Below the pieces are notes generated by a model. That model was not told the DNA's origin and searched no databases. It saw nothing but the letters and a program-made list of their open reading frames with translations. This document shows positions 7,462-59,761 of a stretch of DNA of 64,000 nucleotides, piece by piece. Made by a program: the position numbers and the translations under genes. Source of the DNA: Halostagnicola sp. A56 (GTDB lineage: Archaea > Halobacteriota > Halobacteria > Halobacteriales > Natrialbaceae); assembly GCF_000691505.1 (NCBI RefSeq), contig NZ_JMIP02000025.1, positions 151,312 through 215,311 of the forward strand. Direction: 5' to 3'. Every line of letters starts with the position of its first letter. The stretch's first letter is position 1.

Positions 7462-7885
7462 TTACTGATCCTCAGTCAGTCGTTTTGCTTCCGTCTCGAG
7501 GTCGTCCATGAGGTCGAACTGCTCGTCCGCGACGTCGGCGATTTCTTCGGACTTATCAGACACTTCCTCAGTCTGACGTTTCGCCTCTTCTGTCATACTT
7601 GCGACTTCCTCGATGCTCGCCGCTTGATCGTCGGTCGCCTCCGCGACCTGATTGATTCCCTCGGAAGTGTCGCTGACCAGATCCTCGATACGCGAGAGGT
7701 TGTCGACCGTCTCCTGGACCATCTGGACGCTCTCGTCCAGTTCCTCGATCGCCGTCTCGAGACTCGTCGCGGTGTGTTCGGTGTCCTCTTGGATCTGCGT
7801 GACCGTGCGTTCGATGTTCTTCGCTTCCGTTTTGGAGTTTTCGGCCAGCGACTTCACCTCGTTCGCGACCACCGCGAACCGATCC
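7462..7885 (-). pseudogene. Methyl-accepting chemotaxis transducer, C-terminal fragment
   Basis: About 140 residues of a signalling coiled coil: FAVVANEVKSLAENSKTEAK opens in the conserved hairpin tip region (A-V-V-A-x-E-V-x-x-LAE), followed by heptads (QEDTEHTATSLETAIEELDE, TDDQAASIEEVASMTEEAKR) and the ending EAKRLTEDQ with stop at 7462. The tip itself is missing, because the break falls inside the highly conserved region. Confidence 0.85.
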
Positions 7886-7956
7886 CGCTCGACGAGGTCC
7901 TCGAGGACGGCGTAGCGATTTTGCGCGACTGTCGCTCGGATACCGACGCGGTCGTC

Positions 7957-8080
7957 GGTTTCGATCGGCGTGCCGCGGGTCCGGATCGACCAGTTGATCG
8001 AAATCGGCTGGAAGGGCCTGCTGGTCCTTTCGTTCGCGAACCTGTTGCTCACCGCGATTATCGTGGGGCTGATAGCATGA
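7957..8080 (+). pseudogene. nuoH: NADH dehydrogenase-like complex subunit H, C-terminal fragment
   Basis: RIDQLIEIGWKGLLVLSFAN then LLLTAIIVGLIA and a TGA at 8078 match the end of NuoH, the membrane subunit at the quinone site of complex I. Its stop overlaps the ATG of nuoI as in intact haloarchaeal nuo operons, so this is a real operon piece cut upstream. Confidence 0.8.
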
Positions 8081-8388
8081 TTGGGATACTCAAATCGATG
8101 GCAACGACGATGAAACACGCGCTGGATGGCTCTACGTTCACCGTGGAGTATCCCGAAACTGCGCCGGATGTCTCGCCGCGGTTTCGCGGCGTCCACAAGT
8201 TCAGTCAGGAACGCTGTATCTGGTGTCGCCAGTGTGAGAACGTCTGTCCAAACGATACGATTCAGATCGTGATGGACGACAAGCGAAACGGCGAACAGTA
8301 CAACCTCCACATCGGCCAGTGTATCTACTGTCGACTCTGCGAGGAGGTCTGTCCCGTCGACGCGATTTTGCTCACCCAGAACTTCGAG
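8077..8388 (+). pseudogene. nuoI: NADH dehydrogenase-like complex subunit I, truncated
   Basis: ATG at 8077. Two [4Fe-4S] motifs are intact: CIWCRQCENVCP (residues 47-57) and CIYCRLCEEVCP (82-92), the electron wire from the hydrophilic arm to quinone. Homology stops at LLTQNFE (residue 104); haloarchaeal NuoI has about 153 residues. The remaining open frame to 8436 is unrelated. Confidence 0.9.
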
Positions 8389-10405: not shown

Positions 10406-10551
10406 AACAACAATCTATCTTCACGACAGAGACGATTTCCGTCGAAGAATCAAGCAGTTGGAAATCACTGACGACGAATTTTTAGATGCAAGTCAGACAG
10501 ATATCCACACAGCGATAGCAGAACTAGCCCTCGACAACCCAGACCTCCTAT
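10406..10551 (+). repeat. 146-bp sequence identical to 59614-59759
   Basis: Exact direct copy by base-by-base comparison. It marks both sides of a break in one small gene; the flanks diverge abruptly (before AACAACAATC, and after GACCTCCTAT). Confidence 0.9.
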
Positions 10552-17040: not shown

Positions 17041-17292
17041 TGGCGGGTATGCGAACTGGACACATATAACCGTGACTGTGTTCGGCAAACGCTGCATGTA
17101 TCGGCGAAAAATCGTGAAGAATTCAGCGAGTACCATCGAGACAGAGCCACTATTGGAATATCGTAAATTCGAAGAAACCGAACAGGTTTCGAGCGCCGTC
17201 CGAGTCGCCGAACCGGATCGATCGTCAATCCCACTCCGATTCGAGCGGTCAGTAAACCTTCCCCATCAACGAAACCTAACACAATGCCAACA

Positions 17293-17390
17293 GCTTCGAC
17301 CCCACAAGGGTCCGTCTGAAACTAGAATTTAAAGCTGCCAAGTGCATTTTGGTAAGATCGGCTTCGACCCCACAAGGGTCCGTCTGAAAC
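17293..17390 (-). CRISPR. Two-repeat CRISPR remnant next to cas2
   Basis: Two exact copies of the 30-bp repeat (GCTTCGACCCCACAAGGGTC-CGTCTGAAAC as read on plus) at 17293-17322 and 17361-17390 enclose one 38-bp spacer. In the orientation of transcription the repeat reads GTTTCAGACGGACCC...GAAGC, the type I-B form, so the leader is on the right, between 17391 and the cas2 stop at 17502. Left of 17293 the array is cut. Confidence 0.9.
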
Positions 17391-17501
17391 CATGGCCGAT
17401 TAGACCACGTACACAGCTCTATAGGCTATTCACACTTCATCGTTTCCGTCGACCTGCGATAACCTCTGAACCCCCGGAGGTCGATGGAACAACTGGGGCG
17501 G
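17391..17501 (-). promoter_or_regulatory. Probable CRISPR leader
   Basis: The 111 bases between the cas2 stop and the first repeat hold no gene and lie where the leader of haloarchaeal type I-B arrays is found. Identified by position only. Confidence 0.55.
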
Positions 17502-23537: not shown

Positions 23538-24416
23538 GGTCCGTCTGAAACTTGCATCGTCTCTGGCGTCCAGCGCTTCGACTTCTTGCTTCGACCCCAC
23601 AAGGGTCCGTCTGAAACACTTTACGCTCGACTGGGTGGGATCGGACGTACAACTGCTTCGACCCCACAAGGGTCCGTCTGAAACAACGACTCGACTGGTT
23701 CCTCGAGCACATCGGCGAGTCGCTTCGACCCCACAAGGGTCCGTCTGAAACGCGTACTCGCGAGCCGTATCGGCGCGCAGGCCGTCGAGCTTCGACCCCA
23801 CAAGGGTCCGTCTGAAACCAGCGGTTCGATCCCCACGCGTCGCGACAGTCGGCGCTTCGACCCCACAAGGGTCCGTCTGAAACCCCGGACTTCTCGGCGA
23901 CGTGGGTGCTAAATCACGCTTCGACCCCACAAGGGTCCGTCTGAAACTATTTCCTCGCTCATTCGGTCGGCGAACTTGTCCGCGCTTCGACCCCACAAGG
24001 GTCCGTCTGAAACCTGCAGACATCACAATTCAGCAGGCACACTAAAATGGGCTTCGACCCCACAAGGGTCCGTCTGAAACGCGGTGACGCCGCGGGTGAT
24101 GCGCCGGCCTTCGAGGACGCTTCGACCCCACAAGGGTCCGTCTGAAACCATCTGATTCGTCACCGTCGTCTGCGCTGTAGGTCACGCTTCGACCCCACAA
24201 GGGTCCGTCTGAAACCACGCAAGCAGACAGCACCTACCTCGACTCCGTCGAGCTTCGACCCCACAAGGGTCCGTCTGAAACTCGTCAACGAGATCGAGTC
24301 GACGTCGGAGACGATCGAGCTTCGACCCCACAAGGGTCCGTCTGAAACCTGGGGAGTATCTTGCCACAATCGCATTACTCAATTGGGCTTCGACCCCACA
24401 AGGGTCCGTCTGAAAC
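23538..24416 (-). CRISPR. CRISPR array, 13 full 30-bp repeats plus one partial, leaderless
   Basis: Repeats start at 23588, 23655, 23722, 23789, 23854, 23918, 23984, 24051, 24119, 24186, 24252, 24319 and 24387 and are all identical as far as I can read. Spacers are 34-38 bp. A 14-base partial repeat (GGTCCGTCTGAAAC, 23538-23551) precedes a 36-bp spacer on the left. Repeat orientation (type I-B, haloarchaeal) places the leader on the right, but the base after the last repeat belongs to a PQQ-repeat protein fragment, so the leader is lost. Repeat identical to the cas2-linked remnant at 17293. Confidence 0.97.
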
Positions 24417-24793
24417 AATTGGGACCAGCAGACGCTTCCCGCAAACTATCAAGCCCCACAATTAACAAAGATACCGCTTTCGTGCCAACTTCAGAATATC
24501 TGAATTTTCCTGCCATAGATCTTCAATCACAACAAGAAATTCAAGAATGGGACTATGAAGGTGCAATTACAGCATGGAAACCGGTAGTTGCAGGGGATCT
24601 ATTGTATGTGTGGGGGTCAGAAAACCCACAAGATGGTTTAACATTACATGCTGTAGACCCAAAAGACGGTGACGTAGAATGGACTTTTGATACTAGTGGT
24701 GCGGAGGATCCTGGAGTCCCAGTTATTCTAGATGGCTTAATCATATTCGCAGATGATGGAGAAAAACAGATTACAGCTCTGAAGGATCAATAG
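24417..24793 (+). pseudogene. PQQ-like beta-propeller protein, C-terminal fragment
   Basis: About 125 residues ending at 24793: AITAWKPVVAGDLLYVWGSE, LTLHAVDPKDGDVEWTFDTS, GVPVILDGLIIFADDGEKQI, TALKDQ. The W-x-x-x-P-V-V-A-G-D-x-x-Y-V ... L-x-A-V-D-x-x-D-G-x-x-x-W pattern is that of PQQ-enzyme-like repeats (secreted haloarchaeal propellers). The N-terminal blades are missing; the frame begins inside the CRISPR repeat. Confidence 0.75.
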
Positions 24794-24812
24794 AAGTACA
24801 GGTACATGGGGA

Positions 24813-24957
24813 AAGTGGCAGAAGTCCTCAGATGTCGGAGACGGCGTAGGTTGTCCCGCGACTGGTCCCTGTTGACGTGATCAGGTCGTATTTGTTCTCC
24901 AGGGCACTCAGATACCGACCTCGCGTCGTATCTCCTCGTGGATTATGTGAGCGCTCT
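24813..24957. repeat. 145-bp sequence identical to 49848-49992
   Basis: Covers the last codons of the orc gene (ending SRGTTYAVSDI) and 15 bases beyond its stop. Same orientation in both copies; flanks diverge at once. Confidence 0.9.
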
Positions 24958-32994: not shown

Positions 32995-33237
32995 TTAGAA
33001 TCCCCCCGTTTGTGAGCGCTGATAGACGGCTGCCGCGACGATCCAGATCACCAGCGAGAGGAGTACGATAAACGGAAACCAGATGGCAGTCATCGTCAGC
33101 TGGCCAGCATGTGACGATGGCCCGACACCGAAGCTCTTGATGATCCCGGTTATCGGTCCCATCACCCGCCAAAAGACGAGGATGAGGATTGGAGCGACGA
33201 GGAACGTGATCGCCGCGCGTAGCCAGACTGAGAACAT
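32995..33237 (-). CDS. Two-helix membrane protein, 80 aa
   Basis: ATG at 33237 overlaps the stop of the 1053-aa gene (TAATG). Helices AAITFLVAPILILVFWRVMG and IWFPFIVLLSLVIWIVAAAV flank a loop with GVGPSSHAGQ. Similar plan to the neighbouring 90-aa protein. Unknown family. Confidence 0.7.
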   Translation of the reverse strand: MFSVWLRAAITFLVAPILILVFWRVMGPITGIIKSFGVGPSSHAGQLTMTAIWFPFIVLLSLVIWIVAAAVYQRSQTGGF

Positions 33238-36200
33238 TAGGACCACCACTCGCTGTTGTCTGAGTCCGAACCCCAGAAATCGTAGTCGTAAGCGCTATCG
33301 AAGTCGAATCCGAGATCCTCTGCCTCTGCGATACCAGTTTCCCACGCGGCGTCCTCCGTCTCGAAGTCGAAGAACCCGTCGCCGGGATCCTCTGGGTCCC
33401 ACTCTGGGAACGGGACTCGTGGGCGTGTGGGTCGCCCTGATCGAGTTATCGTCTGCTGCATCATCTGCGAGGGTTGTCCCATCGACATATCCATCGCAGT
33501 TGGTTGCTCGAGGACACTCGCCGTCGCCGTTGGCTGCGACATCGCGGTCATCGTTGGTTCGTAGACCGCGGTATCGGCTGCCGTAGCAGACGACACTCCG
33601 GCGATCATCGAGTCTCCGTACTGCTGATCCATCCCGAGCATTTGCTCGGTCGTAACGTCCGAGGACAGATCTCCAAAGACCTGAGACAGATCCTGTGACC
33701 TCGTTGCTGCTGTGGAACCAGCTTCGAGAACTGTTCCGCTGTCGTTCGGTGACGCGAAAACAGTCTGCCTATCTTGCGAGCCAGAGTCTGCACCGACGTC
33801 GTCAACGGCAGTTGCCGTCTCCATCTGGTTCGGGGATCCAAATGTTTCCGTAGCCGTTGGATCTCCGAAAACACCTGTCGAAGAGTCTTGCCGTTGTGTC
33901 TGCTGCATTTGCTCACGGGCGCGCTGGAGTTCACGCTGATACTCCGCTTGCGAGCTGAACATGTCTTGACTCGCGCGCACTCGCTCAACGGGAGTGGCAT
34001 CTGGTCCAGGTCCAGCTGGTTCCGAGTCAACCAGTTCCTGGACCATCTGCTCTTCGCGACGACGGAGTGCCTGCTGGTACGCTTCGTCGGACTCGAAGGC
34101 TTCTCGTGGCGCTGTCCGTCCTTCTGGAGTTGTGGCTTCTGGATCGGCTGGTCGTTCGCTGTCCGGGAGATCAGATGTTGGTCGCTGTCGCTGGATCGTC
34201 AGATCCATCTGGCCGCGATCGGGACCGCGACTGATCATATCTCCTCGAGGCTCGAAATCTAAGCGCCGAATCTGAGAGACGCCTCGAGAGACAGCCGCTG
34301 GCGCCGCATATGCTACGAGACCTCCGCCAGCTACACGGGCCGATGAAACAACAGGCTCTTCGGCGAATGCTTCTCCAGCTGCCTGTCCAGTTTCGACAGT
34401 CGCTGCTCCTGCATCTTGAGCGCGGCCGCTCCAGTATCCAGCTCCGAATCCAGTATCGAGGACTGTCGATGTGTAATCGAGAGGCTCGCTTTGGAAGTCC
34501 TCAAAACCCATCGTCGCAAGCTCGTCGGCTGACTCTTCCTGAAACTCTGCAGCGGCTTTTAACTCGTCTCGAGCAGCGACAAGAGTGTCTCCAGTAGTCA
34601 ATGCTGCTCCTGCTGGATCAACGGTTGAGGTTCCTGTCTCAACAAACGCTCCGACAGTCTCATCGATATCAGCATCAGTTTCTATCGATCGACCGCTGGT
34701 GGTTGAGAGATAAACTGGCTCACTTGGGAGATACTCTTCGACAGTTCCACTGATGGTCTCTGCGCCGGACTGCCACCAATCACTCGCTGATTCGAGCGCT
34801 CTTCCGAGGCGTCTCTCTCTTTCCTCATCGATCCGTACACCAAGCTCGCCACTGTCGGTTTCGACAACATTGACCTCGGATCGCTCGACGCCCTCCTCTT
34901 CTACCACTTGATCAATAAGGAGATCCTCTTCGGCATCGCGATCGAGGTCTGGAACGAACTGTCCGTCCTGCTCTACGACATCGAATTGGCTCTCATCGAT
35001 GCTCAGTTCTTCCGCGAACTGGTCGCGTGCAGACTCTCTTTGGAACTCTGTTTCGGCCGCCTCACTGAGCTGGTAATCAACCTCCTCGCCACTAATATCG
35101 ACGTTTTGGATATCTTCAGGATCGACTGTTCCAGGCTGTTCCTGTGAGTACTGTTCTGCAATATTGGCCCGTGTCTGTTCCTTCTGGTACTCTTCAGTAA
35201 ACTGGATTTGCGCTTGTCCATCAGACAAGTCAACACCCGCGACATCCTCATATTCGACACCGCTCAATGGATCTTCAGGAGGACCTTCGACGAACGGAAT
35301 GGCACTTCTCACCCTCCCCGTTATTCTGCTTAATGGGTTTTCGTCCTGCTGAGTGGGGTCGTCGAGTTCCGACTCGAGATCTTCGAGAAATTTCTCTTCT
35401 CGAGCCTCTTCGGAGAGGAAGAATTCTAACTCCTCTTCGTCGAGCTCGGAGTAGTCGTAGTCTTCGTAATCCCCCTCCAATTGGACATCGGACCTGTCGA
35501 CGCCTTGTTCGTCGGCGATCTGTTGGCGCTGCCGATCGATGGCAGCGTCTCGAGCGACATTAGGATCGACATCTGTCTGGATACTTCCAGAGTCAACTGA
35601 GACATCGACCGCTCCAGGATCAATCAAGTCGTTGAACTGGTCTTGGGCAACTCGCTGTTGGATTTGTTCGCGACCGCTATCCGAGATTCCCGTTACTTCG
35701 AGCTGTCCATACTGTGTGTCGGTCTCGAGGTCATCAACCGAGACGCCAAGATTCTCAGCAATGTCACGTTTGGCTTGATACTCTTGATTTGTCTCACTTA
35801 CATTTCTTTGAAACTGCTCTTCGGCCTGGACGGTTCGATCGATGATATGGCTATCATTCTGACGGAGTTCTTCGACGTAGGCTTCTGGATTCTCCTCCGC
35901 ACGCTGATATTCATCCTTGAAGATCTCCTGAGCCTGTCGGATCTCATCTGGCTCAGGGATGGTCATATCGTCCTCGTAATACCTCGCGTATTCGTCAGGG
36001 TTGATATTCATCAACTCCTCTGTTGGGTGTTCAGAGGTACCTCCTCCTGACGTGATGATCGGGCGGAACTCGTCCATTTCACTGGGACGAGTAAAATCCC
36101 AGATGATGTTAGTAGCCTCAAGATCGCTCATCAGGTAATCCGTTCCAATCTCGTCACGGATTATCTCGAGTTCGCGTTCAGGGATCGGTCGCGCCTGAAT

Positions 36201-36398
36201 CTGATCGCCGGACTCGTCGAGTACGACTTCGTCCTCGCTAATATCGTACTCGTTGGCAACCTGCTCAACCAAGTCTTCCCTCGCTCGCTGAGCGTCGATT
36301 TGCGCCGCCTGAGCCTCTGCCCGTTGGCGCTGTTGCATCCGTTGGGATGGTTGCTCTCCGCGTGCACGCTGCCGGGCTCGTTGTTCGTCTGTCGGCAT
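33237..36398 (-). CDS. Giant repeat-containing structural-type protein, 1053 aa
   Basis: ATG at 36398. Very hydrophilic and acidic. Residues 45-550 hold at least five degenerate copies of a module of about 60-70 residues with the pattern A-x-(E/Q)-x-x-(V/I)-(D/S)-x-S-x-V-x-V-x-x-x-x-G-Q-x-x (VANEYDISEDEVVLDESGDQ, IADEQGVDRSDVQLEGDYED, FAEELSIDESQFDVVEQDGQ, VVEEEGVERSEVNVVETDSG). A middle part has one weak membrane segment (SSARVAGGGLVAYAAPAAVS), then Gln/Ser/Thr-rich low complexity and an aromatic-acidic end (DYDFWGSDSDNSEWWS). It could be a tape-measure, tail or internal scaffold protein. No family recognised. Confidence 0.8.
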   Translation of the reverse strand: MPTDEQRARQRARGEQPSQRMQQRQRAEAQAAQIDAQRAREDLVEQVANEYDISEDEVVLDESGDQIQARPIPERELEIIRDEIGTDYLMSDLEATNIIWDFTRPSEMDEFRPIITSGGGTSEHPTEELMNINPDEYARYYEDDMTIPEPDEIRQAQEIFKDEYQRAEENPEAYVEELRQNDSHIIDRTVQAEEQFQRNVSETNQEYQAKRDIAENLGVSVDDLETDTQYGQLEVTGISDSGREQIQQRVAQDQFNDLIDPGAVDVSVDSGSIQTDVDPNVARDAAIDRQRQQIADEQGVDRSDVQLEGDYEDYDYSELDEEELEFFLSEEAREEKFLEDLESELDDPTQQDENPLSRITGRVRSAIPFVEGPPEDPLSGVEYEDVAGVDLSDGQAQIQFTEEYQKEQTRANIAEQYSQEQPGTVDPEDIQNVDISGEEVDYQLSEAAETEFQRESARDQFAEELSIDESQFDVVEQDGQFVPDLDRDAEEDLLIDQVVEEEGVERSEVNVVETDSGELGVRIDEERERRLGRALESASDWWQSGAETISGTVEEYLPSEPVYLSTTSGRSIETDADIDETVGAFVETGTSTVDPAGAALTTGDTLVAARDELKAAAEFQEESADELATMGFEDFQSEPLDYTSTVLDTGFGAGYWSGRAQDAGAATVETGQAAGEAFAEEPVVSSARVAGGGLVAYAAPAAVSRGVSQIRRLDFEPRGDMISRGPDRGQMDLTIQRQRPTSDLPDSERPADPEATTPEGRTAPREAFESDEAYQQALRRREEQMVQELVDSEPAGPGPDATPVERVRASQDMFSSQAEYQRELQRAREQMQQTQRQDSSTGVFGDPTATETFGSPNQMETATAVDDVGADSGSQDRQTVFASPNDSGTVLEAGSTAATRSQDLSQVFGDLSSDVTTEQMLGMDQQYGDSMIAGVSSATAADTAVYEPTMTAMSQPTATASVLEQPTAMDMSMGQPSQMMQQTITRSGRPTRPRVPFPEWDPEDPGDGFFDFETEDAAWETGIAEAEDLGFDFDSAYDYDFWGSDSDNSEWWS

Positions 36399-36401
36399 GG
36401 C

Positions 36402-37442
36402 TTACACCCCCAGCAGTGGTTGCATCATCAGCGAGATGGATGTCCCAGCCTCCCCACCGCCACCGAGAGAGGATGCGACACTCGGGCCGAACATACCCAG
36501 CACGATCCCACCGACCAGCAGTGCGACGTAGATCAGCGCAGTCCGTTTGTCGCCGTCGAAACGCTCTGCGAGGCGTCCCCGGTCCTCCTGTTTCTTCATC
36601 TCCTCGGTCGCGCCCTGCGAGTGATACATCTCGTAGTGTTTCTCGAGGCTGACGACCATCCCGTCAGCATCGGGATTCGTATTCGCCCAGTTGACGTAGA
36701 CGTCTTCGAACGGTTCTCCGTTCCACCGGCCAAGGGATTTTGCAGCTAATCCGGTCACGGAGTGGACGCCACCGTCAGCGCGAACTTGTGGCGTCGGTCC
36801 TTGCGCTGTCGGTGTTGGTCCCTGTTGTTTCGACTGCTTCTGTCGATTCAGTCGCTGGACGTAGACTGCGTCCTCGAGGTCAAGTTTCTCGGCAGTTCGA
36901 GCACCGACTGGATCAACCAGCGCGTGGTCGTCTGCAACGCCCCACATTACGCGAGACTGCCCAATGTGGTACGTCTGGAAGCCATCGGGAAGCGTCCACT
37001 CTTCACCGTTGTTGGTCTTGACCTTCCCTTCCTCCTTGTCGATCTCGGCTGGCCGGGGGATGACCTCTCGATCGCCGTAGATCGTGTTGACGATGACGTG
37101 GGCGTCAGTTTTCTTGAAGAGCGCCTGGAACCCCATCCGAATCATCTTCTGGTAGACTGAGGTCCGCCGCGGCATCTTCGAGAGCGGAACGAAGATGAGA
37201 GCGGTCAGGACCGAGCCGAGTGACGAGAGCACAAGCGACCAGGCCGTGTCGGCAACGCTTCCAACGTCGTCGGACTCATCGGTCGGTTCCGAATTCTGGT
37301 CGCGATTGCTTTTACTCTCGCTCCTGGACGGCTGGTTGCTCGAGGTCGTGCTTGAGTTCTCGAGTTGTTCGTCGACTTCATCAACAAGTGCTCGAGTCTC
37401 TTCGTCGAGATCTTCTCGGTTATGCGTATTTTTATCAGTCAT
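36402..37442 (-). CDS. Membrane-anchored protein, 346 aa
   Basis: ATG at 37442. Disordered Ser/Asn/Glu-rich N-terminus, a membrane segment (WSLVLSSLGSVLTALIFVPL), a soluble domain (AHVIVNTIYGDREVIPRPAE, WTLPDGFQTYHIGQSRVMWG, DDHALVDPVGARTAEKLDLE) and a C-terminal helix (TALIYVALLVGGIVLGMFGP) with a Gly-rich stretch. 3 bases separate it from the 1053-aa gene. Unknown; likely a partner of that protein in one complex. Confidence 0.75.
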   Translation of the reverse strand: MTDKNTHNREDLDEETRALVDEVDEQLENSSTTSSNQPSRSESKSNRDQNSEPTDESDDVGSVADTAWSLVLSSLGSVLTALIFVPLSKMPRRTSVYQKMIRMGFQALFKKTDAHVIVNTIYGDREVIPRPAEIDKEEGKVKTNNGEEWTLPDGFQTYHIGQSRVMWGVADDHALVDPVGARTAEKLDLEDAVYVQRLNRQKQSKQQGPTPTAQGPTPQVRADGGVHSVTGLAAKSLGRWNGEPFEDVYVNWANTNPDADGMVVSLEKHYEMYHSQGATEEMKKQEDRGRLAERFDGDKRTALIYVALLVGGIVLGMFGPSVASSLGGGGEAGTSISLMMQPLLGV

Positions 37443-37444
37443 CG

Positions 37445-38011
37445 TTATCCAAACACCCGTTTGTAGAACCGCTTGCCACTGCTCGAATCGCCTTCGTCAC
37501 CGTGTTCGTGCTTTGTGACAGCCGTTGCCTCAGTCAGGCTCCGAAGCCCACGGTTTCCTTTCGCAAGGCTCTGCATACCGGATTTGACCGAGAGCGCTTC
37601 CCAGACCATCCGTTTTTGCTGTTCTGTGAATCCGGTTTTCACGTTCTCGTCGGTATTGTGAACGCCTTGTGCGATCGCGGCAACCGGACCCTTACAGAGT
37701 CGGCCGGGGTTGTGTTCGGCGATTATTTGCTCCGCTCGATTCTCGTTCAGCCAAAAATGCCGATGATGCTCTTCTTCTCCCTCGTTGGCGAGCATGTGGA
37801 TTCGAGAGAGTTCCGGGCCGAGGATGTCCTCGATTTCCTCGAAGAACTCACTCGAGACTTCCGAATCACTCAGCTTATCGATGAACTCGGCTCGCTGCAG
37901 ATGCTCGAATGAAGTCTTTGAGGCGGCTTGGCTGGCGTGCCGGCTCGCTGCTTGGTGAGCCTGCATCTCTTCCCGCCGTTTCTGTTCTTGTTCTGGATCG
38001 GGTTCGCTCAT
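37445..38011 (-). CDS. Soluble helical protein, 188 aa
   Basis: ATG at 38011. Charged helical protein: EEMQAHQAASRHASQAASKT, RAEFIDKLSDSEVSSEFFEE, HRHFWLNENRAEQIIAEHNP, with no membrane segment, ending GKRFYKRVFG. Overlaps the upstream gene by 4 bases. Unknown family. Confidence 0.7.
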   Translation of the reverse strand: MSEPDPEQEQKRREEMQAHQAASRHASQAASKTSFEHLQRAEFIDKLSDSEVSSEFFEEIEDILGPELSRIHMLANEGEEEHHRHFWLNENRAEQIIAEHNPGRLCKGPVAAIAQGVHNTDENVKTGFTEQQKRMVWEALSVKSGMQSLAKGNRGLRSLTEATAVTKHEHGDEGDSSSGKRFYKRVFG

Positions 38012-38316
38012 GGTGTGTATTCGTTGTCGTTAATCTCTGGATCAGTCGGGTAGAAACCGATAACCGCGCCTATTAGGGCAGCTATCGAGAGGATGGCCAG
38101 TCCGGCCATCACATATTGTGCCGCTCCAGCAGAGACGATGGTCGTAGGATCGGATCCTTCAGAGACAACCGCGATTGTGTCTCCAGAGACGGCCAAGAGC
38201 CCCCAGCAGCTCGAGGCGATCGCACTCGTGAATTCGATCGACTCCTCTTCGATGACGTAGAAGTACGTTGATCCACACGCAAGTGCGAACAAAGCGAGGT
38301 AGGCACCAGACCACAT
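38008..38316 (-). CDS. Membrane protein, 102 aa
   Basis: ATG at 38316 overlaps the upstream stop as ATGA, which decides this start over longer possibilities. Three membrane segments (WSGAYLALFALACGSTYFYV, TSAIASSCWGLLAVSGDTIA, YVMAGLAILSIAALIGAVIG), ending DPEINDNEYTP. Confidence 0.7.
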   Translation of the reverse strand: MWSGAYLALFALACGSTYFYVIEEESIEFTSAIASSCWGLLAVSGDTIAVVSEGSDPTTIVSAGAAQYVMAGLAILSIAALIGAVIGFYPTDPEINDNEYTP

Positions 38317-38762
38317 CAGTACCCACCTCCGCGACTGATCGATGTCATCGCCCAGATCGCTCCAACGACGACGAAGAGCGTGAGTCCGACAATCCAACTG
38401 TCAAAGATGGATAGGAGTTGCCCAACGTCCTGGGTGTCTTCAGTCTGGGTTTCGATGACGTAATCGACAGTAACGCCCTCTCCATCGAGGCCTTCGGTGA
38501 GGGTCACGATCCCCTCGCCGTCGAACTCGTAATCCTCTCCGTTGACCAACTCGGTCCCGCTGGAATCCGTGACGGTAATGGATTGGTTGTCGGTCACGTC
38601 CTCAGCATGCTCGAGGGGAACCGTCTCGTTGACCGCGAGCGTAATCGACTCGCCCTCGATCTGCTGTTCCTGCGCTGCATCCTCAAATCCGATACCGACG
38701 GCTGGGAGAAGCAATGCTAACGTCACGAATACGATCAGTATGGTCCAGGGGGATCCCTTCAT
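38316..38762 (-). CDS. Exported protein with C-terminal anchor, 148 aa
   Basis: ATG at 38762. Signal peptide (WTILIVFVTLALLLPAVGIG), an extracellular Ig-like beta domain (ITLAVNETVPLEHAEDVTDN, SIT-VTDSSGTELVNGEDYEF, GVTVDYVIETQTEDTQDV) and a C-terminal anchor (WIVGLTLFVVVGAIWAMTSI). Candidate envelope glycoprotein or pilus-associated protein. Confidence 0.7.
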   Translation of the reverse strand: MKGSPWTILIVFVTLALLLPAVGIGFEDAAQEQQIEGESITLAVNETVPLEHAEDVTDNQSITVTDSSGTELVNGEDYEFDGEGIVTLTEGLDGEGVTVDYVIETQTEDTQDVGQLLSIFDSWIVGLTLFVVVGAIWAMTSISRGGGY

Positions 38763-38829: not shown

Positions 38830-39159
38830 TCACCGCCCTCCTCCGAAGCCACTGGAGCCGAAGAACCGCATGATCGCCTGCGCGGCGATCACCAGCAAGG
38901 CGAGCACGAGAAGTCCGAGGGCTGCGACACCAATCGTCTCGAGATCCGTGACGACCGAACTAAATGGCCCATCCGAAACAGTGATCGAGCCATAGATCTC
39001 GTTGAGGATGTAGACGATAAGCAGGATCATGACCAGTGCGCCGCCGATCATTCGCACTTCGGCCATGATGGGCATCGTATCGGCTAATTTTTCCTGTGCG
39101 TTCGAAGCACTGGCCTTTGCATCATCGTACCGTTCGTTGAACGTTTGTGTATCAATCAT
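38830..39159 (-). CDS. Small two-helix membrane protein, paralogue A, 109 aa
   Basis: ATG at 39159, one base after the stop of paralogue B. Soluble helical N-terminus, then PIMAEVRMIGGALVMILLIV-YILNE, loop DGPFSSVVTDLET, helix IGVAALGLLVLALLVIAAQA and the end RFFGSSGFGGGR. The second half is nearly identical to that of paralogue B. Small abundant two-helix proteins of this type are the coat proteins of spindle-shaped archaeal viruses and also resemble VirB2-type pilins (family knowledge; no homology shown here). Confidence 0.75.
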   Translation of the reverse strand: MIDTQTFNERYDDAKASASNAQEKLADTMPIMAEVRMIGGALVMILLIVYILNEIYGSITVSDGPFSSVVTDLETIGVAALGLLVLALLVIAAQAIMRFFGSSGFGGGR

Positions 39160-39160
39160 G

Positions 39161-39547
39161 TTACCGTCCTCCGCCGAATCCGCTTGACCCAAAGAAGCGC
39201 ATAATCGCTTGCGCGGCGATCACCAGCAGTGCGAGCACGAGAAGCCCAAGGGCTGCAACACCGATCGTCTCGAGGTCGCCTACGATTGAGCCGAATGGGC
39301 CGGTATAATTCCCATCTGTATCGGTCTCGAACTGAATCGAGTTGTAGACCTCGTTGAGAATGTAGACGATGAGCAGGATCATGACCAGCGCGCCGCCGAT
39401 CATTCGCACCTCGGCCATGATTGGCATCCGATCTGTTAGGCGATCGGCTTCACGTTCTGCAGCGCCAACTCTGACCGTGGCACGGTCTCGTGACCGCGCA
39501 AGTTTGGTTTGGATTCGGTTAGTGAACTGTTGTATGCCGAAGGGCAT
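39161..39547 (-). CDS. Small two-helix membrane protein, paralogue B, 128 aa
   Basis: ATG at 39547; first gene of the leftward operon, 43 bases from the TGGCCAC array. Basic N-terminus (FTNRIQTKLARSRDRATVRV), then PIMAEVRMIGGALVMILLIV, a loop longer than in A (FETDTDGNYTGPFGSIVGDL), the helix IGVAALGLLVLALLVIAAQA and the same Gly-rich end. Promoter-proximal position suits a highly expressed structural protein. Confidence 0.75.
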   Translation of the reverse strand: MPFGIQQFTNRIQTKLARSRDRATVRVGAAEREADRLTDRMPIMAEVRMIGGALVMILLIVYILNEVYNSIQFETDTDGNYTGPFGSIVGDLETIGVAALGLLVLALLVIAAQAIMRFFGSSGFGGGR

Positions 39548-39672
39548 GCGATCCGCTATATGAGCCGGTTATATCATATTTCGCACCAGTGGCCACTAAT
39601 CTGGCCACTCAACTGGCCACAAGCGTGGCCACTTAAGCCGCTGTATATGTACGGTTGCACTAGATATCGACA
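39548..39672. promoter_or_regulatory. Divergent promoter region with four TGGCCAC boxes at 12-bp period
   Basis: TGGCCAC starts at 39590, 39602, 39614 and 39626, exactly 12 bp apart; the core TGGCCA is itself a palindrome. TATA-like elements lie outside the boxes on each side: TATATGTAC (39643) about 25 bases before the rightward start at 39673, and on the minus strand ATGATATAAC (about 39568-39577) before the leftward start at 39547. The geometry fits a common repressor or activator binding cooperatively and controlling both operons. Confidence 0.8.
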
Positions 39673-39909
39673 ATGAGTGTGACCGAAACTGAACAAATAC
39701 TGGAGGCCGCGCAAAACTTCGAGCAACGAGAAGTGATCGGTCTGGGCGAGTACACGGTCAATTCGAACGGGCGTGGGTCCGAGACTAAGAAAATGGTCTT
39801 AGCGCAGACCTATGTCAGTTGGCACGGCCTCTCATCGGAATCGAAAGTCAGGACGTGGATTGACAGCAAAACCGGCGCGCTAATCGTTCTCCCAAAAGAC
39901 AATGACTGA
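39673..39909 (+). CDS. Small protein next to operator array, 78 aa
   Basis: ATG at 39673. EVIGLGEYTVNSNGRGSETK, SWHGLSSESKVRTWIDSKTG and ALIVLPKDND; the beta-rich C-terminal end is AbrB-like in feel. As first gene of the rightward operon directly beside the TGGCCAC boxes it is a candidate for the regulator. Stop overlaps the next start by 8 bases. Confidence 0.6.
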   Translation: MSVTETEQILEAAQNFEQREVIGLGEYTVNSNGRGSETKKMVLAQTYVSWHGLSSESKVRTWIDSKTGALIVLPKDND

Positions 39910-40426
39910 GGAAGACTTTGAGCCACGGGCGTACTCGCAGACGCTCAACGAATCGATCGAGCGGATGCATCGGGCGAGGTCGGAACTGAATCAGGCACGT
40001 CTCACGAACGGGACTGTCCCGCTCGAGGCGCACGTCCGCTTCGAGGAGACCGTGCTAACTCTCTATTACGAACTGCGGCCGTATGCTCGCCAAGATAATC
40101 GGACAAAATCCGACTGGGAGGAGAACAAACTCGATCAACTCCCAGAGATCTGTGGGCGACTCGACCGAAGTGAGAGCGTGAAAACCTCTGGTGGGATGAT
40201 CCGTGCATCGTCATCTGTCTCGGTCTCTCACGCAGATGTCGATAATCTTCTCAGTGTTAGTGAGACGATGGACGAGATCTCTCACGAACTCGGATTCACA
40301 GCTGCAGTCGAGACGGAGACTCCAACCAACGAAGCGACTATGTCCGATCTGAGAGGGCTACTTACCGAGCGAGGACAGTACGAAGCGCTCGAGAACCTTC
40401 CAGAAGCCCCGGAGGGGGATGAATAA
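39902..40426 (+). CDS. Hypothetical helical protein, 174 aa
   Basis: ATG at 39902. Helical and polar: YSQTLNESIERMHRARSELN, LTLYYELRPYARQDNRTKSD, ADVDNLLSVSETMDEISHEL, ending ALENLPEAPEGDE. Stop overlaps the ATPase start. Its central 270 bases (40055-40324) are duplicated in inverted orientation at 49992-50261. Unknown; probably works with the ATPase. Confidence 0.7.
   Translation: MTEEDFEPRAYSQTLNESIERMHRARSELNQARLTNGTVPLEAHVRFEETVLTLYYELRPYARQDNRTKSDWEENKLDQLPEICGRLDRSESVKTSGGMIRASSSVSVSHADVDNLLSVSETMDEISHELGFTAAVETETPTNEATMSDLRGLLTERGQYEALENLPEAPEGDE
40055..40324. repeat. 270-bp sequence, inverted copy at 49992-50261
   Basis: Base-by-base identical over the whole length as far as I can compare; boundaries are CTAACTCTCT and GGAGACTCCA. 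Confidence 0.85.
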
Positions 40427-41313
40427 TGTCGTCTGCTGCAGTCCAACACGCGTTCTGGGAAACCGGGATCGATGTCGAGAACGTTTCGACGAGTCCCGAG
40501 GGCGAGCGGCCTATCACGACCGATCCCGATCACGAGATCCCCGTTGACAAATCTTTCTCTGGTCCGTTCTTCCAGGAGATCGGTAAACGGAAACTCGAGG
40601 GTCGGGACGCGAAGACACTTGTCACGGCTGATCACGCCCAGACCGGCGTTGGCAAATCGAACTGTTGTGACTGTCTGGGCTATATCTGTGACACGACCGA
40701 CAGTGGCTTTTCGAAAGAGAAGATCGCGATCGACCCGCCTGAATTCTTTGGGCTCTACGGAAAGGTCCCCGCCGAGTCCGCTGTTGTTCTCGAGGAGGGC
40801 GAACAACTCGATCCGCGACGGGCGATGAAGAACGAGAACGTCGATGCATCCCACACCTGGGCAAAGGAGCGAGTCCGGGAACTCATTGCATTCGTGAACC
40901 TGCCGAGTCCAGAGATGATCGATGGGCGGCTCGAGCTCCTGGCTGACTTCTGGATCAATATCGAGATCCGAGGCCGGGCTCGCATCTATCAGAAGAAGGT
41001 CCATCGGACCAAAGGCTACGTCTACTACGAGACGATGCAGGTCTTCGAGTGGCCAAATATGGACAAGTCTGAGACCTTCAAGATGATGGGTCGGCAGAAG
41101 CAGGACCACATCGACGATAAGGAGGAAGGAAGCAACTGGATACGAAAATCGAAGGTTGATGAGATGCTCGAGAAGCAACGCAAGGAGATCGAACGCGAAG
41201 AACGCGATACCTACATCAGGGCCTTAGTGAACGAGTGTGGCCTGCAGAAGAAGGATATCGCCCCAGCGTTCGACCTCTCTCCGCAACGAGTTGGCCAAAT
41301 CGCACGAGAATAA
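40426..41313 (+). CDS. P-loop ATPase with C-terminal HTH, 295 aa
   Basis: ATG at 40426. Walker A TADHAQTGVGKSNCCDCLGY near residue 68, Walker B-like hydrophobic strand with two Glu (SAVVLEEGEQLDPRRAM), a third conserved part (ELLADFWINIEIRGRARIYQ) and a C-terminal HTH (LQKKDIAPAFDLSPQRVGQI). The fold is RecA/FtsK-like with Zot-type traits; a DNA-packaging or transfer ATPase, or a regulator, are possible. It is the only energy-providing enzyme of the element. Confidence 0.7.
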   Translation: MSSAAVQHAFWETGIDVENVSTSPEGERPITTDPDHEIPVDKSFSGPFFQEIGKRKLEGRDAKTLVTADHAQTGVGKSNCCDCLGYICDTTDSGFSKEKIAIDPPEFFGLYGKVPAESAVVLEEGEQLDPRRAMKNENVDASHTWAKERVRELIAFVNLPSPEMIDGRLELLADFWINIEIRGRARIYQKKVHRTKGYVYYETMQVFEWPNMDKSETFKMMGRQKQDHIDDKEEGSNWIRKSKVDEMLEKQRKEIEREERDTYIRALVNECGLQKKDIAPAFDLSPQRVGQIARE

Positions 41314-46279: not shown

Positions 46280-47314
46280 TTAGTCCTCGTCGTCGTTTTT
46301 GATGTCGAGTTTCTCCGTGATCGGGCGACGCCGATCGAGATCCTGTTCGTGATCCGGCTTATCGTAATAACGTCGGATGGTCTCAGGCGAAGCCGCAACT
46401 CGCCGAGCGACCTTCACGTAACTCAGACCATTATTCAACTGCCAAGTGATCGAACCCGTTCGCACCGCGTGGGGAGAACGGCTCGAGGGACACTTACTAA
46501 CGTCAGACCGCTCCGTGAACTCGCAAGTCGGTCGACGGTTTCCATGTGGACACTCAACATCGAGACACGGAATCGTCGCGAGATAACTCCACCCGCGAAT
46601 AGTCGCCTCCGAAGCACGTCCCTGAAGGGTCGTAAACAACGGCTTGCGCCCGTTCTCATCACGGATCTCCGTTCTCTCACGCGCGATATACAGGTCAAGA
46701 ACCTCAGCTACGTCCTCCGAAACAACGACATTCCGCTCGTGTTCCGTTCCGTCTTTCAAGCGCGTTGGTGGCCGGTTCCGGAACTTCAGCGTCCTATCCG
46801 CCGGATTCCAGTCGTCGAGATCCAACGCACGAACACAGCTGATACGTGGCCCAACGTGCCACAGCACCTCCAGAAGGGCGTGCCTCGAAACCCCACAGTG
46901 ACGGCGGGAATTCCGATAGAACTCGAGAAGCGAGCGCGCGTCTTGAGCTTCGAGGAGATCGTCGCTCGTTTCTTCATCCTTCGAGAGTTCCGGGATGTTG
47001 ACCTTCTTCGGGAGCTCGTCGTCGTCGACGACGTCTATCGACACACAGAAATCGAGCAACTGCTTGAGTGCGACCAGCTGCCCTTTCAGCGTCGTCGGTG
47101 CGACATCGACATCCTCTCGATGTGCCCGGTATTCGTCCAGGAGCCAGCCATCAAGCTCTGCCATCGACTCAATCTCGTTCTGCTCAGCCCACTCGACAAA
47201 CCGAGTCAGTCGGTTTCGATAACTTCGAACGGTGTTCTCCGTGTTCTCCGATTTTCGTCGGAGAAGAAACCGGTCGCGTGCCTCTCGCGGAGTGAGATCT
47301 CGATCTTTACTCAT
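46280..47314 (-). CDS. Tyrosine recombinase (XerC/D-like integrase), 344 aa
   Basis: ATG at 47314. N-terminal SAM-like domain (NTVRSYRNRLTRFVEWAEQN), then the catalytic core: Arg in LWHVGPRISCVRALDLDDW, H-x-x-R box SPHAVRTGSITWQLNNG, Tyr in TIRRYYDKPDHEQDLDRRR. Contains a four-Cys insertion (CLDVECPHGNRRPTCEF) before the H-x-x-R box, a trait of haloarchaeal proviral integrases. It ends at 46280, so the attachment site is expected in the gene-poor DNA left of it or at the cassette ends. Confidence 0.9.
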   Translation of the reverse strand: MSKDRDLTPREARDRFLLRRKSENTENTVRSYRNRLTRFVEWAEQNEIESMAELDGWLLDEYRAHREDVDVAPTTLKGQLVALKQLLDFCVSIDVVDDDELPKKVNIPELSKDEETSDDLLEAQDARSLLEFYRNSRRHCGVSRHALLEVLWHVGPRISCVRALDLDDWNPADRTLKFRNRPPTRLKDGTEHERNVVVSEDVAEVLDLYIARERTEIRDENGRKPLFTTLQGRASEATIRGWSYLATIPCLDVECPHGNRRPTCEFTERSDVSKCPSSRSPHAVRTGSITWQLNNGLSYVKVARRVAASPETIRRYYDKPDHEQDLDRRRPITEKLDIKNDDED

Positions 47315-49721: not shown

Positions 49722-49847
49722 GGATCGACGAAGGAACGAGGACTGATTAAGAGTACACCGGCGATGGGCAGAAAGAGATCAAAACATCTCTACTGCCAAA
49801 ATTCATACTCGAGAAAGGCTGTACTCCGATGGGCAAAAGATGGGCAG

Positions 49848-50261
49848 AAGTGGCAGAAGTCCTCAGATGTCGGAGACGGCGTAGGTTGTCCCGCGACTGG
49901 TCCCTGTTGACGTGATCAGGTCGTATTTGTTCTCCAGGGCACTCAGATACCGACCTCGCGTCGTATCTCCTCGTGGATTATGTGAGCGCTCTGGAGTCTC
50001 CGTCTCGACTGCAGCTGTGAATCCGAGTTCGTGAGAGATCTCGTCCATCGTCTCACTAACACTGAGAAGATTATCGACATCTGCGTGAGAGACCGAGACA
50101 GATGACGATGCACGGATCATCCCACCAGAGGTTTTCACGCTCTCACTTCGGTCGAGTCGCCCACAGATCTCTGGGAGTTGATCGAGTTTGTTCTCCTCCC
50201 AGTCGGATTTTGTCCGATTATCTTGGCGAGCATACGGCCGCAGTTCGTAATAGAGAGTTAG
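49848..50261 (-). repeat. Chimera of orc gene end and inverted piece of the 174-aa gene
   Basis: 49848-49992 equals 24813-24957 in direct orientation; 49992-50261 equals 40055-40324 inverted. The join keeps an open minus-strand frame in which ELRPYARQDNRTKSDW...VETETP runs into ERSHNPRGDTTRGRYLSALE. It has no start of its own family, so it is a recombinant scar rather than a gene. Confidence 0.85.
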
Positions 50262-50298
50262 ATACGAGAAAACTTGTACATGCAGCCAGTGGTTGACC

Positions 50299-51249
50299 GT
50301 GTCCAAGAGATATAACTTATCGTCTTTGATTTCACTGATTCAGAATCCGTCACGGATTTCAGAAGCTGCAGGTCTCCTGGTCGAAGATATTCGAAACGCG
50401 CCCTTATTGATCAACAAAAAGTACTACCAGCGAAAACACAGCTTCCCCGAGACTGATTTTCTGCAGGAAGACTGGGACAATTTAATTCTCCTCGATGCGT
50501 GCAGATACGATATTTTTCGTGAAGAAGCCAGTTTTGAGGACACTGAAATCGAGTCGCGGAGATCTCCGGCAAGTGCTAGCCTTGGTTTCATGAATCACCA
50601 TTATATTGGGAAAGAACATCACGATACAGTATACGTGACCTCCAATCCTCATGTTGAAAGTATTCCTTCGGGAACCTTCCACCATATAGTTAATTTGCTT
50701 GGTTCTGACTGGGACGAAGACTCAGAAACCGTTTTGCCAAGTGTGGTAGTTGACAAGGCAATCGAAACAGCAGAACGATTCCCAAATAAACGACTCATAA
50801 TACATTTTATGCAACCTCATTTCCCTTTTATTGGAGAGACTGGCGAAAAAATATCCTCTGGTTTTGGCCAAACACTAAGTGAAAGAGAGTCACCTCATCC
50901 ATGGAAAGAGCAGATGTTGAACAGTAGATATAATAGAGAAACGCTGATTCAAGCATACCGAGAAAATCATCGTCTCGTAGTACCGCATGTGCGAAATCTC
51001 CTCCAGAGTATAGATGGGAAAAGTGTAATTACATCAGATCATGCCAATTTGATTGGCGAAAAAGGGTACCCTATTCCAATCCAGATGTATGGCCATCCAA
51101 CCAGATTCCCACATCCAAATCTATTGACGGTTCCTTGGGTAGAAATAGAAGGTAATCGGCGAACAATACAATCTGAGCCCCCGATTCAGTATGAGCAGCT
51201 CGACGAAGGTACTGTTCAATCTCGATTGGAATCGCTCGGATACAGGTAA
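50299..51249 (+). CDS. Sulfatase/alkaline-phosphatase-like protein of surface glycan type, 316 aa
   Basis: GTG at 50299 or TTG at 50293; the promoter side is altered by the chimera ending at 50261. WDNLILLDACRYDIFREEAS (metal-binding D with D-A-C-R-Y-D), RLIIHFMQPHFPFIGETGEK and KSVITSDHANLIGEKG (metal-binding D-H) are the alkaline-phosphatase-superfamily strands found in haloarchaeal polysaccharide clusters. It shares base use (AT-richer) and context with the following glycosyltransferases. Confidence 0.75.
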   Translation: MSKRYNLSSLISLIQNPSRISEAAGLLVEDIRNAPLLINKKYYQRKHSFPETDFLQEDWDNLILLDACRYDIFREEASFEDTEIESRRSPASASLGFMNHHYIGKEHHDTVYVTSNPHVESIPSGTFHHIVNLLGSDWDEDSETVLPSVVVDKAIETAERFPNKRLIIHFMQPHFPFIGETGEKISSGFGQTLSERESPHPWKEQMLNSRYNRETLIQAYRENHRLVVPHVRNLLQSIDGKSVITSDHANLIGEKGYPIPIQMYGHPTRFPHPNLLTVPWVEIEGNRRTIQSEPPIQYEQLDEGTVQSRLESLGYR

Positions 51250-55543: not shown

Positions 55544-56482
55544 TTAGAGCATCAACGCTTCGTCGGTCAGCGTCGATGGCGCCATCAGCACTTCCGTCGT
55601 CTGGGAGTTGTCCGCAGTGTTGATAGTAAACGTCGCCTCGTCGCCTGCCGCGATCGCATCGGCGTTCGCATTAACATTATCGTGGAGCAGCAACTCGATC
55701 TGAAGCGTATCTCCAGACTCGAGAATGGTGCTATCAGCGCTTGTACCATCTAGGTCCTGGATCGAGAGCCCGTCGAATCCGTCTGCATCGCCACGAATCG
55801 TGTTTCCGCCAACGTACTCGAACGTAGCAGCATTGAGGTCAACCGCATCGGCACCCGGGCCGAGCGAAACCATCATCTCAACGGAATCGATGGCTTTCTC
55901 ATCGACTACGTCTTCACTGCTTGGATTTGCGGCCAGAGCATCACTAGTTTCAGTGAGGCCAACTACGACGGTGTCACCACCACTGAGAGACGGAACGGAT
56001 ATTGCTCCACTCTGCGTGGGTGAGCCAGTGCCAGAAGCAAGAACATTACTTGCAGCCTCTCCATCAATTTCATGCACAGTGATGTGGAAGGAGTCACTAT
56101 CAGTGAGATCCTCGTCTTCGAGCGCTTGTTCTGCTGCAGCAAGATCGACATTACCAGCGATCTCTGACCCTCCAGCACTGGTTCCTACTGACAGATCAGT
56201 TATGCTTCCTGCAACAATGTTGTCATTGATTCGGTAGTTCGCATCCTCAATAGCGGTTGCATCCGCAGCAACAGACCCAGTCGACGAGTCAATACTGACG
56301 ACGTTCGAGACCTGATCCGTGCTCTCTTGGCCCGTTGCTTCTGCCTGGGACTGGAGCAGTCCAGCCGTATTCATTAGCACGCCTGCTGCAATCGCTGCAA
56401 CAAGCACCATCGCGATGAACACGATGAGTGTACCGATACCAACCTGTCCGCGTTCGTCTTCGTCTGTAATTTTCTCAAACAT
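55544..56482 (-). CDS. Archaellin (archaeal flagellin), 312 aa
   Basis: ATG at 56482. Class III signal peptide with cleavage expected after Gly in [15 protein letters not shown], then the hydrophobic assembly helix [20 protein letters not shown]. Variable middle with Ser/Thr/Asp-rich surface loops, and the shared end [40 protein letters not shown]. Third gene of the operon, 6 bases after its neighbour. Confidence 0.95.
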
Positions 56483-56488
56483 TAGATA

Positions 56489-57406
56489 TCACAACCGCAC
56501 GTCAGATGACGTCGAGAGCGTCGACGGTGCCATCAGCACCTTCGTCGTCTGGGAGTTGTCCGCAGTATTGATCGTGAACGTCGCGTCGTCGCCGCGCGAA
56601 ATCGTATTGGCTTTTGTGGTATCACTATCATCCAGATCTAATCCAATCTGAAGACTCTCTCCAGCCTCGATAATAGTGTCACCAGCGGCGTTTCCATCCA
56701 GATCTTCAATAGTGAGACCGTTGAATCCGTCCTCATCACCACGGATCGTGTTTCCACCAACGTATTCGAACGTTGCAGCACCGAGGTCAACCGCATCGGC
56801 ACCCGGGCCGAGCGAAACCATCATCTCGACCGAGTTAATCGAGCTTGTAGCCGTCGCAGATTGCGCAATGGCAAGAGAACCACTAGACTCGGATAGATCG
56901 GCAACTACAGTGTTGTCCTCACTCGAATCATATGTGAGAGCATCAAGGTCAATATCAGCGGAGGTACTCGTTCCAAGGACACTGGAAACAGTTGTATCAC
57001 CATCGTCAAGTTCAGTAACTGTAACCGTGACAGTTCCCGAACTGAGTGATGCTGTTTCAAGTTGATCCGCTGCCTCCGCCAAGGTTACACCTGTTGCCGA
57101 AGTACCTCCACTGAGATCAACTGCTGTGATTTCGGCATCCATCTCATCATTTAGTTGGTAGCTAGCCGAACCGAGGGCGACGCCACCACTCTGAACGGTA
57201 CCAGTCGCCGAGTCAATACTGACGACGTTCGAAACCTGATCCGTACTTTCCTGGCCCGTTGCTTCTGCCTGGGACTGGAGCAATCCAGCCGTATTCATCA
57301 GCACGCCTGCTGCAATCGCTGCAACAAGCACCATCGCGATGAACACGATGAGCGTCCCGATACCCACCTGCCCGCGTTCGTCTTCGTCTGTAATTTTCTC
57401 AAACAT
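56489..57406 (-). CDS. Archaellin (archaeal flagellin), 305 aa
   Basis: ATG at 57406. The N-terminal 60 residues are practically identical to those of the 312-aa copy ([20 protein letters not shown]) while the middle differs ([20 protein letters not shown]). C-terminal beta region as in the others, ending [14 protein letters not shown]. Second gene of the operon; 6 bases from each neighbour. Confidence 0.95.
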
Positions 57407-57412
57407 GAATTA

Positions 57413-58006
57413 TCACAACCGCACGTCAGATGACGTCGAAAGGGTCGATGGTGCCATCAGCACCTTCGTCGTCTGGGAGTTGTCTGCAGTACTGATAGTG
57501 AACGTCGCGTCATCACCTGCGTCGATGGCGCTAAGTCCACTGGCGGAATCCACATCCAGCACACCGGCCTCAGAAAGCCCGATTGCTATCTGACGAGATT
57601 CGCCAGACTCGATGATCGTGTCATCAGTTGCAGTGCCATCGAGAGTCTGGATCTCGAGTCCCTCGAACTCATCCACAGTTCCTCGAGCCGTGGTTGAGCC
57701 CACGTACTCGAATGTGGCAGCATCAAGGTCAACCGCATCGGCACCAGGGCCGAGCGAAACCATCATTTCAACACCAACAACCTGATCGTCAGAGACCTCA
57801 CCAGTTGCTGAGTCGATGGTCACGACGTTCGAGACCTGATCTGTACTTTCTTGGCCCGTTGCCTCCGCCTGAGACTGCAGAAGACCGGCGGTGTTCATCA
57901 GGACACCCGCCGCAATCGCTGCGACGAGCACCATCGCGATGAACACGATGAGCGTACCGATACCCACCTGACCGCGCTCTTCTTCGTCCGTAACTTGTTC
58001 GAACAT
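57413..58006 (-). CDS. Archaellin (archaeal flagellin), short, 197 aa
   Basis: ATG at 58006 ([18 protein letters not shown]). Same signal and assembly helix, but the variable outer domain is almost absent: after [20 protein letters not shown] it goes directly to [20 protein letters not shown]. First gene of the operon. Length suits a minor or core archaellin. Confidence 0.95.
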
Positions 58007-59606: not shown

Positions 59607-59761
59607 GTGAACAAACAACAATCTATCTTCACGACAGAGACGATTTCCGTCGAAGAATCAAGCAGTTGGAAATCACTGACGACGAATTTTTAGATGCAAG
59701 TCAGACAGATATCCACACAGCGATAGCAGAACTAGCCCTCGACAACCCAGACCTCCTATAG
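59603..59761 (+). pseudogene. N-terminal part of the ~77-aa protein completed at 10406-10628
   Basis: ATG at 59603, overlapping the upstream TGA. MSEQTTIYLHDRDDFRRRIK to LALDNPDLL, then TAG formed by the join at 59760. In the other copy the frame goes on LLRKLKQVQEERNREKYWSD. So this is the start of a split gene, not a complete one. Confidence 0.75.
59614..59759 (+). repeat. 146-bp sequence identical to 10406-10551
   Basis: Exact direct copy. Left side here is the native gene start; right side is foreign. Confidence 0.9.

Follow-up and report, generated by a model that had tools for sequence, protein, structure and literature searches.

A 12-bp-phased array of TGGCCAC boxes between divergent operons of a haloarchaeal element, a putative operator of an AbrB-like regulator

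The window, i.e., the whole 64,000-nucleotide stretch of Halostagnicola sp. A56 DNA that was analysed, carries two divergent operons separated by an array of short repeats, and these belong to an integrated, probably spindle-virus-like element. The boxes and core promoters listed here were read directly from the sequence.

33237..38762, minus strand: remainder of the leftward operon, presumably structural from its synteny in relatives (148, 129, 188, 346 and 1053 aa)
38830..39192, minus strand: paralogue of the protein encoded at 39161..39547, 81% identical over the core
39161..39547, minus strand: first gene of the leftward operon, capsid-like membrane protein with two transmembrane (TM) helices (predicted three-helix model)
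39569..39584, minus strand: BRE/TATA-like core promoter of the leftward operon, GCGAAATATGATATAA
39590..39596, plus strand: box 1, TGGCCAC, with the preceding base GTGGCCAC
39602..39608, plus strand: box 2, TGGCCAC
39614..39620, plus strand: box 3, TGGCCAC
39626..39632, plus strand: box 4, TGGCCAC, with the preceding base GTGGCCAC
39642..39649, plus strand: TATA-like element of the rightward operon, TGTATATG
39673..39909, plus strand: 78-aa ORF, AbrB/MazE-like by profile matches of its group and homologues, proposed to bind the boxes
39902..40426, plus strand: 174-aa ORF, second gene of the rightward operon, conserved in relatives by tblastn
40426..41313, plus strand: 295-aa P-loop ATPase with a C-terminal HTH-like region
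46280..47314, minus strand: tyrosine integrase that probably belongs to the same element; a related provirus has a homologue with 51% identity

The term spindle-virus-like is suggested by the ATPase and the gene layout and is used here with no claim of membership. Relatives of the element were gathered by searching genomes. ATPase homologues occur in 30 of 392 Halobacteria genomes and also on the Natronomonas pharaonis plasmid PL23 (57%) and on a plasmid of Natrinema sp. DC36 (71%), and many of the ATPase-bearing relatives keep the divergent gene layout. Relatives of the ATPase match the DnaA-like PHROG 5484, and the ATPase itself aligns with ORF1 of the Halorubrum spindle-shaped virus BLv25 (32% identity over 83%, E 3e-18). 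PAV1 is a spindle-shaped virus too. A protein of PL23 was earlier recorded as resembling its ORF528 (PMC3543421). The capsid-like protein has a general two-TM-helix layout in common with the BLv25 major capsid protein (MCP), and this is the extent of the likeness: no similarity was detected to that MCP, to the PDB in profile searches or to the phage collection. Queries with the ATPase, capsid and small-ORF sequences returned nothing from IMG/VR, nor did the ATPase query from the genome contig collection, and a search of the window for a tRNA attachment site found none. The claim of the sequence-only reading that the array lies between structural and replication genes is plausible, given the capsid-like membrane proteins on one side and, on the other, an ATPase related to proteins that match a DnaA-like PHROG.

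Several further rearrangements and repeats were observed in the window. The integrase opposes the ATPase in direction, whereas the integrases of the related loci L041 and L052 point with the ATPase, which suggests an inversion in this element. Positions 49992-50261 are a 100% identical inverted copy of 40055-40324, the middle of the 174-aa gene, and form part of a chimeric segment (49840-50261) in which this copy is fused to a 98.7% copy of 24806-24957, the end of an orc1/cdc6-like gene. The segment yields a hybrid ORF (49863-50306) and represents either recent recombination or an assembly artefact. A CRISPR-like array with a conserved repeat of ~30 bp (GTTTCAGACGGACCCTTGTGGGGTCGAAGC-type) and a period of ~66 bp spans 23588-24420, and a second, small one lies at 17288-17393. 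A 146-bp perfect direct repeat occurs at 10406-10551 and 59614-59759, 49 kb apart, and several tandem diverged copies (71-84% identical, unit ~200-570 bp), probably paralogous genes, occupy 55569-58006.

Exact matching confirmed four evenly spaced TGGCCAC boxes, starting at 39590, 39602, 39614 and 39626 and thus separated by a step of exactly 12 bp, as first noticed from the sequence alone; the first and the last each lengthen to a perfect 8-bp palindrome. A two-box pattern with up to two mismatches matched seven times against 0.16 expected, and six of the seven matches fall within the array. The absence of a second such array from the window, also claimed at that stage, held true: this is the sole site in the 64 kb at which four copies of any 7-mer follow one another at a constant step between 8 and 30 bp, and the array is a single match in the whole 3.18-Mb host genome (G000). 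Its 5-bp linkers are all unlike (TAATC, TCAAC, AAGCG and TTAAG), and the Tandem Repeats Finder score is only 51. Because the linkers differ, the array is not a fresh tandem duplication, and with identical boxes set between four unlike linkers, selection on the boxes is a more natural reading than recent duplication. TGGCCA triplets at 12 bp are found in public contigs (33 viral stretches and at least 116 genome stretches), but these are background: no relative was detectable beside them among the stretches that were fetched, and inspection of the four longest arrays revealed simple minisatellites.

Two back-to-back promoters flank the array, which sits midway between them. Measured from the start codon of each operon, the minus-strand TATA-like element (39569-39575) occupies -28 to -22 (ATG at 39547) and the plus-strand element (39642-39649) -31 to -24 (ATG at 39673), its TATA-like stretch 39644-39648 falling at -29 to -25; taking the leaderless -27 rule as a yardstick (PMC5974055), both stand at leaderless distance from their start codons. 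Opposite TATA-like elements therefore do bracket the boxes, as the sequence-only reading had it. The array ends ~4-5 bp short of both BREs and covers neither TATA.

In each of the 16 regions examined, syntenic or similar, the first rightward ORF encodes an AbrB-like protein of 71-99 aa, and these small ORFs have often diverged beyond BLAST detection. The 78-aa protein alone had no match in Pfam or NCBIfam. When a group profile of the small ORFs was compared with the PDB, 13 of 16 matches were of the AbrB/MazE/SpoVT type or annotated as 'addiction module antidote' (best E 0.0016); the 10-row profile A5 matched AbrB less strongly (E 0.4). With a profile built from the 78-aa subfamily, 12 of the 125 host-family genomes searched yielded homologues, some of them in haloarchaeal chromosomes. 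Homologues found in this way match PF04014 (Pfam MazE_antitoxin) with values just under the cut-off (5e-5 and 2.4e-4); one of them matches MazE_antitoxin at 5e-5 and the AbrB model TIGR01439 at 0.005, and some are longer with an AbrB-like start. The single-sequence AlphaFold model, weak at a pLDDT of 66, comprises a single helix plus four strands, includes a long hairpin and returned no significant Foldseek match. Judging from the profiles of its relatives, the 78-aa protein probably belongs to the AbrB/MazE swapped-hairpin group. Two other identities were considered for this locus and rejected or given less weight. For a ribbon-helix-helix (RHH) regulator like F55 there was no RHH match, and the prediction, from a weak model, is mainly beta; a MazEF-type toxin-antitoxin module was dismissed on the lack of a Pfam toxin match in the two genes after the 78-aa ORF, those of the 174-aa protein and the ATPase.

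No TGGCCAC array was found in relatives of the element, and this box is private to that of Halostagnicola sp. A56. Upstream of the small first ORF, relatives often have an 11-12 bp period with other boxes (GTTTAAAC, CTAGGGT or GGTTGTAA). Examples are L036 (GTACAAAC/GTTTAAAC/GTTTAAAC, z 5.3), L049 (GTATGAAT/GTTTGAGT/GTTTAAAC/GTTTAGAT, z 5.5) and L044 (CTATGGCT/CTAGGGTA/ACAGGGTT/CTAGGATA, z 4.3); the upstream region of L052 is also periodic at 11 or 12 bp. Arrays at 11 bp occur in L042, L037, L041 and L079, the last three of which share one small-protein subtype that favours 11 bp in three of three cases. No significant array was detected at L088 or at L047, which encodes the closest syntenic homologue of the 78-aa protein, nor any periodic signal at DC36, and PL23 has a weak 12/24-bp signal only. 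Outside such elements, the non-syntenic homologues L285 and L288 are preceded by chromosomal arrays of GTTCACAC (three copies at 12 bp before its own gene, z 7.5) and of CCCCAGT-type boxes (three at 12 bp, z 5.1), respectively, and L287, a relative of L285, likewise has an array before its own gene; all three come from genomes without the ATPase. Since several relatives without TGGCCAC have different boxes at 11-12 bp, it is the ruler that is shared and not the box, and each element or lineage appears to have its own box sequence while retaining the spacing. Both box and exact period vary between elements whose ATPases are 50-70% identical. A scan of haloarchaeal homologues for the motif, suggested at the outset, thus recovered the spacing and not TGGCCAC. 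Conserved operons lacking the boxes, which had been named as evidence against a function, were indeed found as far as TGGCCAC itself is concerned, but several of these relatives have 11-12 bp boxes of their own.

Simple exact 6-mer periodicity misses the arrays of relatives, and a tolerant statistic with natural controls was used. When the best of 13 periods was scored per region, it was 11 or 12 bp in 15 of 24 non-redundant regions (3.7 expected, p 2e-7), in 14 of 23 if the window's own region is left out, and in 7 of the 11 held-out regions fetched after the hypothesis had been formed (p 3.8e-4); the elements are partly related, so that tests over loci are not fully independent. Half of the 24 regions reached p<0.05 at 11 or 12 bp against a rate of 0.10 in a background of 552 GC-matched natural upstream regions, and about half of the related regions have no significant array. 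The control set may include copies of the real arrays, which would enter it as upstream regions of the divergent genes, and the test would in that case be conservative. With natural segments of the loci themselves as controls, the values were milder than with shuffles. Averaged across loci, z peaks at lags of 11, 12, 22 and 24, and a coding-sequence control had no peak at those lags.

A homologue of the 78-aa protein is also present in SNJ1 (L294, AY048850), an icosahedral temperate virus of the Simuloviridae, and in its relative HJIV1 (BK013338). The SNJ1 homologue is a 74-aa ORF on the minus strand (7851-8075, ATG at 8075), where the annotation lists gp16 as a truncated hypothetical protein (7851-8000) with a probably mis-annotated start; the HJIV1 homologue carries no annotated gene. 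In SNJ1 the ORF is divergent to a structural operon that opens with gp17 (ATG 8189), and between the two, at 8107-8150, lies a degenerate 12-bp array of four units (GAATTGGA/GAATAGGT/GAATATCA/GAACACGT in SNJ1 and HJIV1, z 4.3-4.8), placing it at ~ -32 to -75 relative to the regulator and ~ -39 to -82 relative to the structural gene. This geometry resembles that of the Halostagnicola window. NVIV1 has a different homologue and different boxes, again at 12 bp. In the literature searched we found no study of the SNJ1 ORF at 7851-8075.

Taken together, we propose that the boxes are the cooperative operator of an autoregulating AbrB-like repressor governing both operons, a reading to which we assign a probability of about 0.68. 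The 78-aa AbrB/MazE-type swapped-hairpin protein would bind each TGGCCA palindrome as a symmetric dimer, and dimers 12 bp (~1.14 turns) apart would touch and form a short filament. Once filled, the array would approach both BREs to within ~4-5 bp and repress the rightward and leftward operons together, i.e., the regulator, the 174-aa protein, the DnaA-like ATPase and the leftward structural operon, and the provirus would stay quiet until the level of the regulator drops. The box sequence would set immunity specificity, because the box is element-specific and the 11-12 bp ruler is kept. That the 78-aa product might act on the boxes as a small cooperative dimer had been suggested from the letters alone; this prediction is well supported by the profile assignment, and the 12-bp arrays that precede homologues in unrelated contexts likewise point to this protein as the probable binder. 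The zinc-finger protein encoded at 41552, put forward as a second candidate binder, gained no support: homologues exist in relatives, and none is tied to arrays.

The array could instead be an upstream activating sequence, at which an AbrB-like or other factor beside the BREs recruits TFB/TBP and turns on one or both operons, for example late genes that are switched on after induction. Activators of haloarchaea, GvpE for instance, have their sites immediately upstream of the BRE, and the window boxes, which stop short of both BREs and leave the TATA elements free, occupy such a position. Nevertheless, repression is preferred because the corresponding units of L036, L044, L049, L285 and SNJ1 extend into the BRE/TATA region of the regulator gene, and we regard activation as unlikely. 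A characterised regulator points the same way: SNJ1 ORF4, of the MazE superfamily, controls the lysis-lysogeny switch (Chen et al. 2020, as cited in PMC12642351).

Direct repeats with helical spacing are typical of replication-origin iterons, and the operon's ATPase, with its relatives in a DnaA-like PHROG, or another initiator might read them as such. We consider this very improbable: arrays precede 78-aa homologues in genomes and contexts without the ATPase, SNJ1 has an array with its replication protein RepA encoded elsewhere in the genome, and box and period change while the ATPases stay similar. There is equally little to recommend a host AbrB-type or other cellular regulator, rather than a viral protein, as the reader of the boxes. 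Homologues of the 78-aa protein do exist in haloarchaeal chromosomes, but a host regulon is at odds with an array that occurs only once in the host genome, and among relatives the box varies with the element. Least credible is a chance or decaying minisatellite without function since, although 12-bp TGGCCA triplets do occur as bacterial minisatellites, here identical boxes with unlike linkers are centred between two promoters and in relatives the period is found again at the equivalent place with other boxes.

Beyond the proposed repressor operator at this locus, the arrays might follow one operator grammar, in which an AbrB-like family, a fixed 11-12 bp ruler and freely varying boxes are combined between divergent regulator and structural operons. 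Such a grammar would then operate in host chromosomes and in no fewer than two unrelated types of haloarchaeal virus, namely the icosahedral viruses of the SNJ1 group and the spindle-virus-like proviruses, with the box serving as an exchangeable immunity specificity like that of lambdoid operators; we put this forward tentatively, at somewhat under even odds. If true, operators and immunity groups would be predictable from sequence, in a field where very few systems of lysis-lysogeny or provirus control in haloarchaeal viruses are understood. The grammar points to the SNJ1 ORF at 7851-8075 beside the structural operon, within an existing genetic system, and may inform how AbrB-type proteins read DNA, the rules of which have been elusive (PMC4022651).

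Small MazE-type or AbrB-like regulators of archaeal viruses are already known, as are tandem-site repressors with another fold; an 11-12 bp phased, box-changing operator for AbrB-like viral regulators was not described in the open literature searched. Among the relatives, PL23 and DC36 share with the window the ATPase homologue and a divergent layout with an AbrB-like first gene, and BLv25 shares an ATPase homologue (32%); unlike the window, all three are without TGGCCAC boxes. SNJ1 ORF4 is, according to PMC12642351, a small MazE/AbrB-type protein of a haloarchaeal temperate virus that controls the provirus state, the role also proposed for the 78-aa protein. It is, however, a different protein from the SNJ1 family member at 7851-8075, and its divergent region (SNJ1 2245-2401) held no 11-12 bp array at the sensitivity used. 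C68 of the Sulfolobus plasmid-virus pSSVx is, like the proposed regulator, a viral or plasmid AbrB-like swapped-hairpin transcription factor, but its motif, TATG(C/GG)TTTTC, comes without a reported 12-bp phased array and its host is not haloarchaeal (PMC5569661). AvtR of AFV6 oligomerises over ~100 nt between two promoters and represses its own gene, and thus resembles the proposal in spreading and autorepression; it differs in its RHH fold, its degenerate sites and the absence of an exact 12-bp box array (PMC5569661). F55, a small repressor of the spindle-shaped temperate archaeal virus SSV1, binds tandem repeats at the promoter of its own gene and at further promoters, with an RHH fold and two ATAGATAG repeats per site at several promoters (PMC5569661), whereas the window has an AbrB-like candidate and one four-box array between two operons.
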